Below, piece after piece: positions 7,722 through 25,954 of a DNA stretch of 37,463 bases. The notes under the pieces were generated by a model, which searched no databases, had not been told where the DNA came from, and saw only the letters and a program-made list of their open reading frames with translations. The stretch is from an uncultured Opitutia bacterium. GTDB lineage: Bacteria; Verrucomicrobiota; Verrucomicrobiia; Opitutales; UBA953. How positions within the stretch are numbered: the first letter of the stretch is position 1; each line of letters begins with the position of its first letter. The position numbers and the translations under genes were made by a program. The stretch is taken from positions 1 to 37,463 of the forward strand of contig CAISXT010000006.1 in the NCBI GenBank assembly GCA_903889525.1, written 5' to 3'.

Positions 7722-8363
7722 TTAGAACTCGGAGTCCTTGGTGCAAATCCAGCACTTGATGCCGACCTTGCCGGCTAGGGTGCGGGCTTCGGTGAAACCG
7801 TAATCGATGTTTTCGCGCAGGGTGTGGAGCGGGACGCGGCCGACGCGAGCGGACTCGACGCGGGCGATTTCAGCGCCACCGAGACGACCGCCGAGGCGGA
7901 TACGGATGCCATCGGCACCGTTGGTCATCGTGGTCTGGACGGCCTTCTTCATGGCGCGACGGAAAGAGATGCGGCGTTCGAGCTGCAGGGCAATGTTCTC
8001 AGCGACGAGCTGGGCGACCAAGTCAGGGCGCTTCACTTCATTGACCTCGAGAATGATATCGTCGATGCGGGCCTTGCCAGCGACCTTCTGGATCTCCGCA
8101 CGGAGATTCTTAAGTTCATCGCCCTTACGGCCGATGACAACGCCCGGGCGGGCGGTCCAGATGCGAACGCGAACCTTCGGGCCGGCACGTTCGATGAAGA
8201 TACGAGGCACAGCGGCCTGGCGAAGCTTCTCCTTGAGGAACGTGCGGATGCGGTAGTCCTCCAAGATGTTAGCGGGGAAATCGCGCTTGGTGGCGTACCA
8301 GCGGGATTCCCAGTTACGACGGACGGCTAGACGGAAGCCGATAGGATTTACTTTCTGGCCCAT
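7722..8363 (-). CDS. rpsC: 30S ribosomal protein S3
   Basis: A 213-residue protein of the small-subunit head that lines the mRNA entry tunnel and has helicase activity together with S4 and S5. It begins MGQKVNPIGFRLAV. The KH-domain core is VRIWTARPGVVIGRKGDELK, with the GxxG-type loop IGRKGD, and the C-terminal domain contains GADGIRIRLGGRLGGAEIAR. It is directly downstream of rplV (9 nt). The length is close to that of E. coli S3. Confidence 0.98.
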   Translation of the reverse strand: MGQKVNPIGFRLAVRRNWESRWYATKRDFPANILEDYRIRTFLKEKLRQAAVPRIFIERAGPKVRVRIWTARPGVVIGRKGDELKNLRAEIQKVAGKARIDDIILEVNEVKRPDLVAQLVAENIALQLERRISFRRAMKKAVQTTMTNGADGIRIRLGGRLGGAEIARVESARVGRVPLHTLRENIDYGFTEARTLAGKVGIKCWICTKDSEF

Positions 8364-8731: not shown

Positions 8732-9070
8732 TCAGATGCGGGGGTTAGCGCGGGGGGTGACAAGGTCGCCAGAGGTGATCTGGGCGGAGGAGTCGAGGGA
8801 AAGAATGAGTGCAACCGAGCGATGAAGCCCAGCTTCGGCGATGACGACGGCGCCGAAGGCGCGGCCATCACGGCTGACATTGCAGACCGTGCCGGGGCGA
8901 AAGCCGCGGTCGTGTCCGCCATCCAAGACAACCAGATCCGTCGAGCGGGCAGAAACGACCGCCACGACCGGAGCCTTGCCGTCCGCCTCCGCCGTTCCCA
9001 AGGTGCGGGCTTCCGCGCCGACCGCGGTGGCGGCGACGAGAAGGGCAAACATGGAGAAGGCGGTGCGCAC
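8732..9070 (-). CDS. Small secreted protein encoded inside the S10 operon (unknown function)
   Basis: A 112-residue protein with a GTG start at 9070; an internal ATG lies 18 nt further on. Residues 1-20 form a signal peptide: Arg2, a hydrophobic stretch (MFALLVAATAV) and a likely cleavage site near VGA-EA. The mature part of about 90 residues has the pattern VVAVVSARSTDLVVLDGG, GFRPGTVCNVSRDGRAFGAVVIAEA and a final SGDLV. That resembles the small beta domain at the end of FlgT-like and similar PVC envelope proteins, where a value, a 'G-x-x-x-G' turn and 'x-GD-x-V' recur; this similarity is from memory. It lies 9 nt after rpsS and 20 nt before rplV in the same direction, so it should be co-transcribed. 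The function is unknown. Confidence 0.8.
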   Translation of the reverse strand: MRTAFSMFALLVAATAVGAEARTLGTAEADGKAPVVAVVSARSTDLVVLDGGHDRGFRPGTVCNVSRDGRAFGAVVIAEAGLHRSVALILSLDSSAQITSGDLVTPRANPRI

Positions 9071-9079
9071 GGTATGGGT

Positions 9080-9358
9080 TTACTGAGCTTCCTTGCGGGA
9101 GGGTTGGGTGTGCTGGCGGAAGGTGCGCGTAGGAGCGAACTCTCCGAGCTTATGGCCAACCATGTTTTCCGTCACATAGACGGGGACGAAGGCTTTGCCA
9201 TTGTGAACCTCGAGATTGAGGCCGATGAAATCAGGAGTAACCGTCGAGCGACGAGACCAGGTCTTGATCGGCTTACGGCTATTGGCCTTCTGGGCGACGG
9301 TGACCTTATCGACGAGATGAGCGTCGACATAGAAACCCTTTTTGCGAGAGCGTGCCAT
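9080..9358 (-). CDS. rpsS: 30S ribosomal protein S19
   Basis: A 92-residue protein of the small-subunit head that binds with S13. It begins [15 protein letters not shown]. The conserved block includes [44 protein letters not shown], with the signature [15 protein letters not shown]. It follows rplB by 22 nt. It is the last canonical gene before the secreted-protein insertion. Confidence 0.98.
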
Positions 9359-9380: not shown

Positions 9381-10241
9381 TTAGACCTGCTTCACCTTCC
9401 GGCCGTTGCGGCGGAGGATGATTTGGTTGTTGGAGGCCTTCGCCTTGGTGCGCGTCGGGAATCCCTTCGCGAGCTGTCCCCAGGGGGACTTGAGGTGCTG
9501 GCGACCGCCACCACCCTTTTTCTTACCACCGCCACCACCGTTCGGGTGATCGACAGGATTCATGGACATACCACGCTGGCGAGGGCGAATGCCCTTCCAG
9601 CGGCTACGGCCGGCCTTACCGAGGCTGGCGTTGTGGTGATCGACGTTGCCGACGATACCCACGGTGGCGCGGCAATCGGCGTTAAGGTAGCGCTGTTCAC
9701 CGGAAGGCATGCGCAGAATGGCGCGGCCGTCTTCGATACCGAGGAGCTGGGCGAAACCGCCGGCAGAACGGGCGAGCTGACCACCCTTACCTGGGCCGAT
9801 TTCGATGCAGTGAATGAAGGTGGCCGGAGGAATCAGGCGCAACGGCAGGGACAGGCCCGGGGTGAGCTGCTCCTGAGCGGTGTTGGTGCTGACGACCTTG
9901 TCGCCAACCTTAAGGCCATCCGGTGCGAGGATGTAATTCAGGGTCTTGTCGGCGTACTCGATCAAGGCCAGGTGCGACGTGCGGTTCGGATCGTATTCGA
10001 TGCGAATGACGGTGGCAGGCTGGTCGAGGCGGTCGCGACGGAAGTCGATGGTGCGGTAAAGCTTCTTATGACCTCCGCCACGACGGCGAGAAGTAATGCG
10101 GCCGTAGCAATTACGGCCCATGGCACGGTGATTACTTTCCGTGAGGGCAGGCACGGGGCGACCGGCGTGCAGCCCCTCGGTCTTCACGCGCACTAGGAAG
10201 CGCGTGCCGGGGGTGATAGGACGATGGGTTACGATGGGCAT
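9381..10241 (-). CDS. rplB: 50S ribosomal protein L2
   Basis: A 286-residue protein needed for subunit association and peptidyl-transferase centre assembly. Signatures are RNCYGRITSRRRGGGHKK near the N-terminus and GMSMNPVDHPNGGG near residue 225; the latter holds the conserved histidine. A Gly/Lys-rich stretch (GGGGKKKGGGGR) follows. The family-typical C-terminus NNQIILRRNGRK is present. It is in the usual place between rplW and rpsS. Confidence 0.98.
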   Translation of the reverse strand: MPIVTHRPITPGTRFLVRVKTEGLHAGRPVPALTESNHRAMGRNCYGRITSRRRGGGHKKLYRTIDFRRDRLDQPATVIRIEYDPNRTSHLALIEYADKTLNYILAPDGLKVGDKVVSTNTAQEQLTPGLSLPLRLIPPATFIHCIEIGPGKGGQLARSAGGFAQLLGIEDGRAILRMPSGEQRYLNADCRATVGIVGNVDHHNASLGKAGRSRWKGIRPRQRGMSMNPVDHPNGGGGGKKKGGGGRQHLKSPWGQLAKGFPTRTKAKASNNQIILRRNGRKVKQV

Positions 10242-20392: not shown

Positions 20393-20425
20393 CAAGTTTG
20401 CCAAGCGCGAGGTTTTATGTCCGTT

Positions 20426-20430
20426 GGAGG
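20426..20430 (+). promoter_or_regulatory. Strong Shine-Dalgarno site deciding the uvrA start
   Basis: GGAGG stands 7 nt before the ATG at 20438. An upstream in-frame ATG at 20417 has GAGG only 4 nt before it, a poorer spacing. This is one of few clear ribosome-binding sites in the window and favours 20438. Confidence 0.55.
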
Positions 20431-20437
20431 GTCGCCG

Positions 20438-23400
20438 ATGACCGCCCCCCGACCAGACGCCATTCGCCTCCGCGGCGTTCGCCAGAACAACCTGAAGGGT
20501 TTCGACGTCGATATCCCGGTCGGGAAACTGGTCGTAGTCACCGGCCTCAGCGGCGCCGGCAAGTCGTCGCTGGTTTTTGATACGCTGCACGCGGAAGGGC
20601 AACGACGCTACGTCGAGACGTTCAGCCCCTACGTTCGGCAGTTTCTGGAGTTACTCCCTTCGCCGGCCCTCGACTCTGCGGAAAACGTCCGCCCATCCGT
20701 CGCCATCAAGCAGGGTAATGCCGTCCGCACCTCGCGCTCGACGGTCGGCACGATGACGGAGTTGTGCGATTGGTTTAAAGTCTGGTTCGCCCACCGGGCC
20801 GAACTCATCGATCCGGCCAGCGGCCTCGCCGTGATCCCGCGCGGTCCCGATGCCGCCTGGCAGGACTCGCTGGCGCGGTTCATCGATCAATCCGTGTCGC
20901 TGGCCTTCGCCGTGGGCAAACCGGAGTCACTCGGATGGAAGACTATCGCGGAAGAGTTTACCCGGGCAGGCTTCAGCCGCGCCTTTGCCCATGGCCAGCG
21001 CATCCGCCTGACCGAAGATGAAATTCAGGCCGAAGCGACCGAGCTGCTGATCATCCAGGATCGCGTCCCGATAGCGAAATCCCAGGCCTCGCGCTTTCAT
21101 GAAGCCGCGCTCGCCGCCTACCGTCTAGGTGGCGGCCGGCTTCGCCTGCTCGATGATCACGGCAATGAGCTTTCGCGCTACAGCGAAGCCCTGGAATCAC
21201 CCGTCAACGGGCGTAAATTCCGGCCCGCCTCGCCGGCACTCTTCTCTTTTAATTCACCGGTCGGCGCCTGCCCTGAATGCCGCGGCTTTGGTCGAGTCAT
21301 CGGACTTGATTGGAATAAAATTATCCCAAATCCGGCGCTCACCCTGGCTGAAGGTGCCATCGCCTCCTTCCAAGGTACAGTCTACGGCGAATCGCAGAAA
21401 GACCTCGCCAAGGCGTGTCGCAAGGAGGGTATCCCGCTCGACGTGCCGTGGAAGAAACTCTCCGCCGCCCATCGTAAGTTCATCGAAAACGGCGAGCCCA
21501 GCTATGTCCCGGGCGAGTGGGATTCCAAGTGGTACGGGATCCGCGGGTTCTTCCGCTGGCTCGAATCATCGACTTACAAGATGCACGTGCGCGTCTTCCT
21601 GTCACGCTGGCGCGCCTACGAGCAGTGCCCCAAGTGCCAAGGTCGCCGCTTTCGCGAAGAATCTCTCTGCTGGCGCTGGCAGGCCAAGACGCTCCCGGAG
21701 CTCTACGCCATCCCGGCCACGGATTTACGCCGCTTGCTCGCCCCACTGGCGCCGAAAGACTCGCGGCATCCGGCCGACCACGCCCTCGAGGCGATTCTCG
21801 CCCGCCTCGGGTACCTTGAAGCGGTTGGCCTGGGCTACCTCGCCTTAGATCGGCTTTCGCGCACGCTCTCGGGGGGCGAAGTCCAGCGCGTGAACCTGAC
21901 CTCCTGCCTCGGCGCTTGCCTGGCGGATACGGTCTTCGTCCTCGATGAACCCAGCGTCGGCATGCACGCCCGTGATTTATCCCGCATGGTGGGCATCCTT
22001 CGCGGGCTCGTCGAGCAAGGCAACACGGTCGTGGTCGTCGAGCATGATGAGTCGGTGATGCGGTCCGCCGATTGGCTCATCGAAATCGGCCCGCGGCCCG
22101 GCGCCGAAGGCGGGCACCTGCTTTACCAAGGCCCGCCCAAAGGCATCCTGAAGCTGAAAGAATCAGCGACGGGCAATTGGCTCTCCGGCCGCCGCCAACC
22201 TGAGAAACGCGCCCCACGCAGCGTCGACGATACGACTCCGCGCCTGCGCGTCACGGGCGCCACGGTGAATAATCTGCGCGACTTTGCCTGCACCATCCCG
22301 CTGGGTCGACTCGTCGGTCTCTGCGGCGTGTCTGGCTCAGGGAAATCCACCCTACTCCACCAAGTCATCGGCCGCCGTGACCCTGAGTCCGGCGATCAAG
22401 CCGAAGAATCCAAGTGGCTCAAGTTCGACAAAGAGCCCGAAGAGGTCGCCTTAGTCGATCAATCGCCTGCCACGCGCACGCCGCGCTCGAACCCAGCCCT
22501 CTACGTTGGCGCCTGGGATGCGATTCGTAATCTGATAGGTAACTCGGCCGAAGCCAAAGCCGCCGGACTCACGCCTTCGCACTTCTCCTTCAATGCCGGC
22601 GAAGGGCGCTGCGAACGTTGCGGCGGGGCGGGCTGGGAAACGGTGGAGATGCAGTTCGTCTCGGACGTCGCCCTGCCCTGTCCGTCCTGTAATGGTAAAC
22701 GCTTTCGCGACGAGGTGCTCGCTTTCCAGTACGACGGTAAATCTGTCGGGGACCTCCTGGCAATGTCCATCACGGACGCCCGCAAGTTCCTCGGTGCGCG
22801 CACCCCGGCCTCCACGCAGCTCGCCTGCCTCGAGGAAGTTGGCCTCGGCTATCTCTCGATGGGCCAGCCACTCACGACCCTCTCCGGGGGCGAAGCCCAG
22901 CGACTCAAGCTAGTTCGCTACCTCTCTAAAATCGATACCCGTAAGCGCGGCGCACTCCTCTTGCTTGATGAACCGACGACGGGGTTGCACCGCGAAGATG
23001 TCTCCCGCTTGATCGGCTTACTCCACCGCCTCACCGAGGCTGGCCACTCACTGATCGTCGTCGAGCACCAGCTCGATGTGCTGAAAGCCTGCGATTGGAT
23101 TATGGAGATGGGGCCCGAAGCCGGGCCCGGCGGCGGCCACCTGGTCGCGCAAGGCACCCCCGCCGAAGTCGCCCTCGCGGGTACGGTGACCGGCGAATTC
23201 CTCGCCAAAGGTGACGAAGCCTTCGCCGATGCCGAAACCCGAAAGAGCCGCCCACGCCCGACCTCCATCTCCCTGCGCGGCGCCCGCGAGCATAACCTCA
23301 AAGACGTCTCCCTCGAAATTCCGCACGGCTCGCTCACCGTGATGACGGGTGTCTCCGGCTCCGGTAAATCATCCTTGGCTTTCGATATCTTGTTTGCGGA

Positions 23401-25954
23401 AGGTCAGCGCCGCTTCCTCGAATGCGTCTCCGCTTACGCACGACAGTTTGTCGAACAACTCCCCAAGCCCGACATCGACTCACTCACCGGCCTCCCGCCC
23501 ACGGTCGCGATTGAACAACGTGTGACGCGCGGCTCCGCCAAATCGACGGTGGCCACGGTCACCGAGGTCGCGCAATACCTCCGCGTACTCTTTGCGCGGG
23601 CTGGCGTGCTCCATAGCCCGACAACTGGCGAGCCCCTCGAAGAAATGACGGAGGACGCGGTCGTCCGGCTGGTCGCCAAGAAAGCCAAGGCGCTCAAGAA
23701 AGGCTCCCTGCTCGTGGCCGCACCGCTGGTCCGCGCCCGCAAGGGGCACCATCGCCCCCTCGCTGAGTGGGCGGAAACGAAAGGCCTTCGCCTCCTGCGT
23801 TGCGACGGCAAGATGCTCAAGGTCGATGGCTTCGACGGACTCGATCGCTACTCCGAGCACGACGTCGACGCCATCTTTGGTGAAATCCGGCCTGACGGTT
23901 TAATCCTTCTCCCGGATGAAACGGAAGAGTCCGGCGAAAAAGCCCTCCGCACCTTAGTCCGCCAGGCACTGGCCTCCGGGAAAAACGCCTGCGTGCTCCT
24001 TGATCCGCATGGTCACCAGCTGGGCTACTTCTCGACGGCCCGAAGCGACCCTGCTACCGGCGAAGCGTTCCCGGAAGTCGACCCGAAGCATCTCTCCTGG
24101 AACTCGCCCCGCGGCTGGTGCCCGGATTGCCGCGGCCATGGACTGGAAGTCACCACGTTCTCCGCCGATGAAGAAGAGTCGCTAAATGAGAATGCCATCG
24201 CGGATCGGGTTGGCGAAAAGATCTGCCCTACCTGCCACGGCGAGCGGCTCGGGCCCATCGGGCGTTCCGTCAAACTCGCCGGCCCCAAGGGACGCTCGCT
24301 CTCATTGCCAGGACTGCTTCGACTCCAACCCGATGAATCACTGGCGTTCCTCAGCAGCCTGAAACTCGAAGCCCGCGAAAAAGCCATTGTCGGTGCGTTG
24401 TTGCCCGAAATCGGCGCACGCCTGCGCTTCCTCGACTCAGTCGGCCTCGGTTACCTGGCCCTCGATCGCGGGGCGGATACCCTCTCGGGTGGCGAAGCCC
24501 AACGCATCCGACTCGCCGCCCAGCTCGGCTCCACGCTCTCCGGCGCGCTCTACGTACTCGACGAACCGAGCATCGGGCTACACCCGCGCGATAACGACCG
24601 ACTCATCGAGTCTCTCCGCGAACTCCGCGATCGCGGCAATACCGTGCTCGTCGTCGAACACGATGAAGACACGATGCGGGCCGCCGACCTCGTGGTGGAT
24701 ATGGGCCCCGGCGCGGGCGTTCACGGCGGCGAAATCGTCGCCCAGGGCACCGCCGCCGCGCTGGAAAAACGCCCCGACTCTGTCACGGGCCGCTTCCTGA
24801 AAGAAGCCATCCCGCATCCACTCCGCGGAACCCGCCGTCCGGTCGCCGGTCAAGGCGCTCCCGCCGAATGGATTAAACTCCGGCACGCCGCTTTACGTAA
24901 CCTCAAGGGCTTCGACGTGCAGTTCCCGGTCGGACGGCTCACCGTCGTCTGCGGCGTTTCCGGCGCTGGCAAGAGCACCCTGATCACCGACCTACTCGCC
25001 CCGGCCATCCGCGCGGCCATCGCCAAAAAGAAAGATGGGCTGACCGGCAAGGAAGCACTCACGGCGGTATCGCACGCAGGAAAGCCTGCCTTCACCTCCC
25101 TTTCTGGACTGAAAAGCTTCCGCCAATTGGTCGTCGTAGACCAAGAGCCGATCGGCAAGACCCCTCGCTCTACCCCGGCGACTTACATCGGTGCGTGGGA
25201 TCTGATTCGGGAACGACTAGCCTCACTACCCGAAGCGGCCATCCGTGGCCACACCGCCGGCTTCTTCTCTTTCAATACTTCCGGCGGCCGCTGCGAATGC
25301 TGCTCAGGCGCGGGCCGAATCAAACTCGAGATGAGCTTCCTGCCCGACACTTATGTCCCGTGCGAAGAATGCGCGGGCACTCGCTACGGCGCCGCCGCTA
25401 AAGCCATTCAATGGAACGGCAAGTCCGCGGCGGACCTCTTAGCGATGACGTTTGAGGAAGCGGCCGAGTTTCTCTCCTTCGACGCCAAGCTGGGCGACCT
25501 GTGTAAGCTGATGGTGAAAACCGGCTTGGGCTATTTAACCCTAGGACAAAGCAGCCCCACGCTCTCCGGCGGCGAAGCCCAGCGCCTCAAACTGGTCAGC
25601 GAACTGGCCCAAGGCCTGCCCACCTTCCGCGAACGGTCGCGCGGAGAGATTCGCCCGAACCTCTACATCCTTGAAGAGCCAACCATCGGACTCCATCAAT
25701 CGGATTGCCGGCGCCTCATTGAGCTCGTGCATGCACTCATTGATCAAGGCCACACCGTGATCGTCATCGAGCACCACCCTGACGTGATTGCCGAAGCCGA
25801 CTGGGTCGTAGAAATCGGGCCAGAAGGCGGCAACGCCGGCGGGCAATTGGTGCATGCAGGCGACCCAGAATCCCTCGCTGCCCATCGGAAATCACCGACC
25901 GCCCCCTCCTTGCGCCTGACGCTCGAGCGCGGCAAGGCCCTCACCCGAGCTTAA
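20438..25954 (+). CDS. uvrA: Excinuclease ABC subunit A, double-length tandem fusion
   Basis: A 1838-residue protein, twice the length of normal UvrA (about 940), that detects DNA damage for nucleotide-excision repair with UvrB and UvrC. Two complete UvrA units lie head to tail, giving four ABC ATPase domains. Walker A motifs are GLSGAGKSS (36-44), GVSGSGKST (630-638), GVSGSGKSS (971-979) and GVSGAGKST (1506-1514). LSGGE signatures lie near 478, 815, 1349 and 1709. The second zinc modules are intact (CERC/CPSC; CECC/CEEC). In both units the first module keeps only one CxxC, and unit 2 lacks about 85 residues present in unit 1. The fusion resembles chlamydial UvrA, which I recall as about 1790 residues. 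An alternative start is at 20417. Confidence 0.95.
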   Translation: MTAPRPDAIRLRGVRQNNLKGFDVDIPVGKLVVVTGLSGAGKSSLVFDTLHAEGQRRYVETFSPYVRQFLELLPSPALDSAENVRPSVAIKQGNAVRTSRSTVGTMTELCDWFKVWFAHRAELIDPASGLAVIPRGPDAAWQDSLARFIDQSVSLAFAVGKPESLGWKTIAEEFTRAGFSRAFAHGQRIRLTEDEIQAEATELLIIQDRVPIAKSQASRFHEAALAAYRLGGGRLRLLDDHGNELSRYSEALESPVNGRKFRPASPALFSFNSPVGACPECRGFGRVIGLDWNKIIPNPALTLAEGAIASFQGTVYGESQKDLAKACRKEGIPLDVPWKKLSAAHRKFIENGEPSYVPGEWDSKWYGIRGFFRWLESSTYKMHVRVFLSRWRAYEQCPKCQGRRFREESLCWRWQAKTLPELYAIPATDLRRLLAPLAPKDSRHPADHALEAILARLGYLEAVGLGYLALDRLSRTLSGGEVQRVNLTSCLGACLADTVFVLDEPSVGMHARDLSRMVGILRGLVEQGNTVVVVEHDESVMRSADWLIEIGPRPGAEGGHLLYQGPPKGILKLKESATGNWLSGRRQPEKRAPRSVDDTTPRLRVTGATVNNLRDFACTIPLGRLVGLCGVSGSGKSTLLHQVIGRRDPESGDQAEESKWLKFDKEPEEVALVDQSPATRTPRSNPALYVGAWDAIRNLIGNSAEAKAAGLTPSHFSFNAGEGRCERCGGAGWETVEMQFVSDVALPCPSCNGKRFRDEVLAFQYDGKSVGDLLAMSITDARKFLGARTPASTQLACLEEVGLGYLSMGQPLTTLSGGEAQRLKLVRYLSKIDTRKRGALLLLDEPTTGLHREDVSRLIGLLHRLTEAGHSLIVVEHQLDVLKACDWIMEMGPEAGPGGGHLVAQGTPAEVALAGTVTGEFLAKGDEAFADAETRKSRPRPTSISLRGAREHNLKDVSLEIPHGSLTVMTGVSGSGKSSLAFDILFAEGQRRFLECVSAYARQFVEQLPKPDIDSLTGLPPTVAIEQRVTRGSAKSTVATVTEVAQYLRVLFARAGVLHSPTTGEPLEEMTEDAVVRLVAKKAKALKKGSLLVAAPLVRARKGHHRPLAEWAETKGLRLLRCDGKMLKVDGFDGLDRYSEHDVDAIFGEIRPDGLILLPDETEESGEKALRTLVRQALASGKNACVLLDPHGHQLGYFSTARSDPATGEAFPEVDPKHLSWNSPRGWCPDCRGHGLEVTTFSADEEESLNENAIADRVGEKICPTCHGERLGPIGRSVKLAGPKGRSLSLPGLLRLQPDESLAFLSSLKLEAREKAIVGALLPEIGARLRFLDSVGLGYLALDRGADTLSGGEAQRIRLAAQLGSTLSGALYVLDEPSIGLHPRDNDRLIESLRELRDRGNTVLVVEHDEDTMRAADLVVDMGPGAGVHGGEIVAQGTAAALEKRPDSVTGRFLKEAIPHPLRGTRRPVAGQGAPAEWIKLRHAALRNLKGFDVQFPVGRLTVVCGVSGAGKSTLITDLLAPAIRAAIAKKKDGLTGKEALTAVSHAGKPAFTSLSGLKSFRQLVVVDQEPIGKTPRSTPATYIGAWDLIRERLASLPEAAIRGHTAGFFSFNTSGGRCECCSGAGRIKLEMSFLPDTYVPCEECAGTRYGAAAKAIQWNGKSAADLLAMTFEEAAEFLSFDAKLGDLCKLMVKTGLGYLTLGQSSPTLSGGEAQRLKLVSELAQGLPTFRERSRGEIRPNLYILEEPTIGLHQSDCRRLIELVHALIDQGHTVIVIEHHPDVIAEADWVVEIGPEGGNAGGQLVHAGDPESLAAHRKSPTAPSLRLTLERGKALTRA

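Follow-up and report, generated by a model that had tools for sequence, protein, structure and literature searches.

Few bacterial gene clusters are as well conserved as the S10 operon, and the occurrence within it of an exported-protein gene that spans a whole phylum is unexpected. The C-terminal domain of FlgT has the topology of the F1-ATPase N-terminal domain-like barrel, an arrangement common also to the barrels of periplasmic adaptors (PMC4446572). Known arrest peptides are encoded upstream of secA, secDF and yidC (PMC10987492), and the PVC signature protein CT421.2 has been reported also in Chlamydiae and Planctomycetes (PMC3444138). Here, a small gene between rpsS and rplV, designated X, is compared with these systems; a search of the open literature turned up no account of it.

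The gene at the rpsS-rplV junction

The window, i.e. the whole stretch of 37,463 nucleotides that was analysed, derives from an uncultured Opitutia bacterium and carries X on the minus strand at positions 8732 to 9070. The gene comprises 112 codons, with a GTG start at 9070 and a TGA stop at 8732-8734, and encodes a 112-residue protein that is predicted to be exported; the plus-strand reading of the same interval does not correspond to X. Upstream lies rpsS (S19; 9080-9358, minus strand; Pfam PF00203 Ribosomal_S19, E 6e-35), the stop of which precedes X by 9 nt, and a gap of 20 nt separates X from the start of rplV (L22; 8373-8711, minus strand; PF00237 Ribosomal_L22, E 1e-36). Both gaps are exact, confirming the claim of a previous sequence-only reading that a co-directional 112-residue ORF is packed between these two genes. 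The context is provided by rplB (9381-10241, minus strand) and rpsC (7722-8363, minus strand), which were used as tblastn queries and have counterparts upstream of rpsS and after rplV, respectively, in related loci. A profile search revealed a single copy of X in the draft genome to which the window belongs.

The stretch from rpsS through X to rplV contains no predicted terminator on the strand that encodes these genes, and the single sigma-70-like site in this region compares with 1.3 expected by chance. An Rfam search of the window returned no match. In codon usage, X ranks just below each of the 17 ribosomal-protein genes that were tested, and higher than nine other genes in the window. Elsewhere in the window, only 15 nt (2973-2987) separate the ORFs read by position as rplO and rpsE, a spacing that leaves no rpmD (L30) there, and an ORF of 1845 residues on the plus strand (20417-25954) contains repeated ABC and UvrA domains, apparently representing a double-length UvrA.

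Predicted export signal, architecture and predicted fold

Residues 1-21 of X (MRTAFSMFALLVAATAVGAEA; 9008-9070, minus strand) read as a signal peptide with an A-X-A motif. Since a plain test of N-terminal hydrophobicity was non-discriminating (68 of 140 C-termini also passed), a stricter test was adopted in which an uncharged hydrophobic 12-mer was sought; this was present within the first 75 residues in 113 of 140 homologues and after residue 75 in two of the 140. The signal peptide described in the earlier reading is supported. Most of the 27 proteins that failed the test still have a hydrophobic stretch, and in three loci (L022, L044 and L136) the start is wrong, cut or uncertain. At L022, a seeming fusion of rpsS and X is an artefact of a run of N marking a gap. 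The N-termini of the homologues are variously of SPase I, anchor-like or lipobox-like type, the last having been identified by eye at two loci (L100 and L147).

The remainder of the protein is dominated by a C-terminal beta domain at residues 33-112 (DLVVLDGGHDRGFRPGTVCNVSRDG...SGDLV; 8735-8974, minus strand), supported by the domain profile, structural modelling and dN/dS analysis, with the pattern DLVVLxGGxxxGxRpGxvCxVxRxG...ALILxL...GDxV. The short form of X has a median length of 113 residues (86 Opitutales loci), and the non-Opitutales proteins have a median of 249 residues (n=54). In most of these lineages the additional length comprises a helical, often coiled-coil-like middle part: 43% of the 54 long forms show a 3.5-residue periodicity in this region at p<0.05, and for several of them NCBIfam gave weak matches to coiled coils of the SMC type.

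A first model of full-length X was too poor for use (pLDDT 64), but an AlphaFold2 model of the domain alone was better (pLDDT 76.9, pTM 0.63) and contains six predicted strands, supporting the small beta domain suggested earlier. Relatives with which to enrich the model alignment were sought in viral contigs and none was found. The best structural neighbours of the model are the N-terminal barrels of F1/V1-ATPase subunits (Foldseek E 0.02), with Z up to 8.7 and an rmsd of about 2.4 Å over 73 residues; FlgT itself was not among the matches listed. With moderate confidence, the domain is predicted to be a six-stranded barrel like that at the N-terminus of F1/V1-ATPase subunits. Since the scores are middling and the barrel is a common arrangement, the model indicates a class of fold as opposed to a function.

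Searches of Pfam, NCBIfam and PHROGs gave no match to X above cut-off, the window protein was assigned to no Pfam family, and a profile search of the PDB found nothing below E 0.2. What did recur were weak matches to Pfam FlgT_C at E values of 0.01-0.06, which would fit a barrel topology shared with the C-terminal domain of FlgT. The likeness to FlgT noted in the sequence-only reading may hold as regards predicted topology, given that the model matches the F1/V1 barrel, which is described as the fold of the C-domain of FlgT (PMC4446572), but not as regards family membership, the FlgT_C matches being below cut-off. X belongs to no named family that was found, and constitutes a new family for annotation.

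Distribution, selection and history

Within the family of the source organism, BLAST detected X in 68 of 79 genomes, including all 36 of good quality. The median dN/dS of the gene is 0.27 (227 pairs), and both results indicate that X is more than a chance ORF. The corresponding values for rpsS and rplV are 0.043 and 0.047; X is under purifying selection and evolves faster than its neighbours. Within X, the signal peptide is relaxed (0.63) compared with the domain (about 0.23). Across the order, 129 of 273 sampled genomes gave a match, the weakest of which include paralogues located elsewhere (e.g. L172 and L173), and every Opitutales locus checked that carries the short form has it between rpsS and rplV. 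The nearest named records are from uncultured Opitutae and Opitutus sp. MAGs. A record labelled Akkermansia muciniphila (L049, CALQLO010000057.1) shares 99% identity with the window gene and is probably a mislabelled Opitutae MAG bin.

More distant copies in the phylum were reached with a profile of 38 domain sequences (A1). The domain gene lies directly upstream of rplV in 36 of 47 distant loci inspected, the other 11 being paralogues elsewhere. In the 36 proteins the same domain forms the C-terminus and is preceded by a helical middle part, with a signal or anchor at the N-terminus of most of them. In all, relatives of X were found directly upstream of rplV in 140 fetched genomes or loci from many families of Verrucomicrobiota, usually with rpsS on the other side, at a median distance of 19 nt from rplV and 10 nt from rpsS (n=119). 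Families are denoted here by codes (f1, f29, f38 and so forth), and counts per family reflect samples that were unevenly drawn, all within Verrucomicrobiota, from loci picked because they matched. By hand count of 68 classified genomes sampled across the phylum, about 37 have X directly upstream of rplV and about 31 do not, absence with rpsS and rplV adjacent to each other being frequent. Given these absences and the patchy tree described below, X is not generally needed.

The junction has also been broken. In five families (f38, f43, f44, f48 and f49; loci L176-L197 and L200-L207), rpsS and rplV reside at separate loci, the S10 operon having parted exactly between rpsS and rplV (or X-rplV). 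X remains upstream of rplV after the split in 14 of 19 cases examined from f38, f43 and f48, by 12-127 nt in the copies found, and was not found in f44 or f49. On a tree built from four ribosomal proteins (82 rows), the presence of X has to change 16 times, with at least nine of these changes forced by strongly supported branches, and presence is clustered. As this tree has no outgroup, we infer the direction of change: X would be an old gene with a history of repeated loss, repeated independent gain at the same junction seeming less likely. The earlier description of X as an insertion is accordingly upheld in that a real gene lies inside the S10 operon, but not in the sense of a peculiarity of one genome, since it is a phylum-wide feature, apparently old and lost many times. 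The splitting of the operon here, together with the recurrent loss of X, should be useful for studying change in ribosomal-protein operons.

Paralogues with an anchor, a helical part and the same domain occur outside the S10 operon. A domain tree of junction copies and paralogues did not reject a single origin of the junction copies (AU p 0.47), albeit with 77 columns, which are too few for proof. In some Opitutales a paralogue adjoins a pgi-like gene (L172:1980-2792, L174:1427-2182 and L175:2014-2739), and those at L172 and L174 also adjoin a TP_methylase (rsmI-like) gene, the Pfam check being of the L172 methylase. Two such paralogues in tandem adjoin a gene for an ABC exporter (ABC_membrane) in other families (L160:1159-2750 and L168:1398-3047).

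Possible roles and comparison with known systems

The reading that we favour, at somewhat better than even chances, is that X is an exported scaffold or assembly protein of the envelope, periplasmic or membrane-anchored, that is co-expressed with ribosomal proteins. Export would rely on a signal peptide or a membrane anchor, with a putative lipobox in a few proteins, and X would act on the periplasmic side by means of an anchor, a coiled-coil-like helical stalk in most lineages and a C-terminal six-stranded barrel of the FlgT-C or periplasmic-adaptor type. Given its place in the S10 operon just ahead of rplV, X is probably transcribed with the ribosomal proteins, so that its supply may rise with growth; output in proportion to ribosomes, and any coupling of growth to the envelope, as proposed in the sequence-only reading, might follow from such an arrangement. 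Counted in favour of the envelope scaffold are the location, the occurrence in many families, the split operons, selection, the export signal, the helical region, the fold, the lack of a predicted terminator and the paralogues; counted against it are the patchy absence, codon usage below that of ribosomal-protein genes, the commonness of the fold and a link to rplV that may be passive, since any gene inside an operon is retained when breaking that operon carries a cost. X would offer a connection between the envelope and the supply of ribosomes that can be put to the test in the phylum to which Akkermansia and Verrucomicrobium belong.

In the main rival explanation, X is an envelope gene of use to the cell but unrelated to the operon, which it joined on a single occasion by chance; its position would be devoid of functional meaning and maintained by selection against rearrangement of S10. 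This is a serious, if on the whole unlikely, explanation, consistent with the frequent absence of X from an otherwise contiguous rpsS-rplV pair, with its faster evolution and with codon usage that is not of the ribosomal-protein type. The retention of X close upstream of rplV after the operon split argues to the contrary, as do the paralogues, which demonstrate that genes of this kind are not confined to the operon; however, f38, f43 and f48 sit on one common branch, and a single split of the operon may account for all three. Alternatively, an exported protein translated in the middle of the operon could pull the S10 mRNA, with the ribosomes on it, towards the membrane (transertion) and in this way position the synthesis of ribosomal proteins or tie it to Sec capacity; this role is unsupported, and we consider it improbable. 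The same low expectation attaches to the variant in which such translation tethers the S10 mRNA or the pool of new ribosomal proteins to the membrane in Verrucomicrobiota, and the envelope or Sec machinery positions or tunes the supply of ribosomes. Maintenance of an export signal, whether the N-terminus is of SPase I type, anchor-like or lipobox-like, and of a position inside the operon, would suit tethering; yet X accompanies only the rplV half of split operons, many lineages manage without it, and the selected, conserved part is the folded domain, with the signal peptide being least constrained.

It is very improbable that X is a secretion-monitoring leader, that is, an arrest peptide of the SecM/ApdP type controlling translation of rplV and the genes that follow. 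A small secreted protein does lie directly upstream of a ribosomal gene, and in the genus of the window the C-terminus is RANPRI, which loosely resembles RAGP/RAPP. However, RAPP-like motifs (motif list after PMC10987492) were present in the last 40 residues of none of 140 homologues, C-termini differ between families (KTLQNS, VKTIN and others), and this reading was rejected on these grounds. The resemblance to SecM and ApdP is that of a small protein, with an N-terminal export signal predicted from sequence in X, encoded upstream of a conserved part of an operon; X differs in its C-terminus, in its conserved folded domain and in preceding rplV as opposed to a Sec or YidC gene such as those that follow the known arrest peptides (PMC10987492).

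MreC (PF04085) was considered as an ancestor. Long-form X resembles it in having an anchor, a coiled coil and a beta domain. The likeness is at the level of a short motif (hhalign probability 15%; best NCBIfam E 0.0001) and all cut-offs were missed, the best Pfam scores being 14.4 bits for a paralogue and 14.0 for a junction copy against a cut-off of 28, and this candidate was discarded. The same genome encodes a separate MreC on another contig (G000:C30, E 2e-28), giving the cell an MreC other than X. Compared by description with CT421.2, X was surveyed within Verrucomicrobiota, whereas the signature protein has been reported also from Chlamydiae and Planctomycetes (PMC3444138).

FlgT differs from X in that the gene for X is in the S10 operon and other FlgT domains were not found with it. 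The best relative of X scored 16.7 bits against FlgT_C (PF16538), compared with a gathering cut-off of 27, and the window protein gave no match; nor was the flagellar rod family (Flg_bb_rod) matched in the 90%-complete draft genome, in which positive controls were found. The periplasmic adaptors (HlyD/MFP) likewise gave no family match above cut-off, that to TIGR01843 being at the level of the coiled coil and scoring 27.6 bits, where the cut-off is 208.65. The Vibrio H-ring protein FlgT is exported, as predicted for X, and has a six-stranded F1-ATPase N-terminal-like barrel of the kind modelled for X. The adaptors combine an anchor and a helical part with a six-stranded barrel, the topology of which is described as being the same (PMC4446572), and thus resemble the architecture predicted for X.
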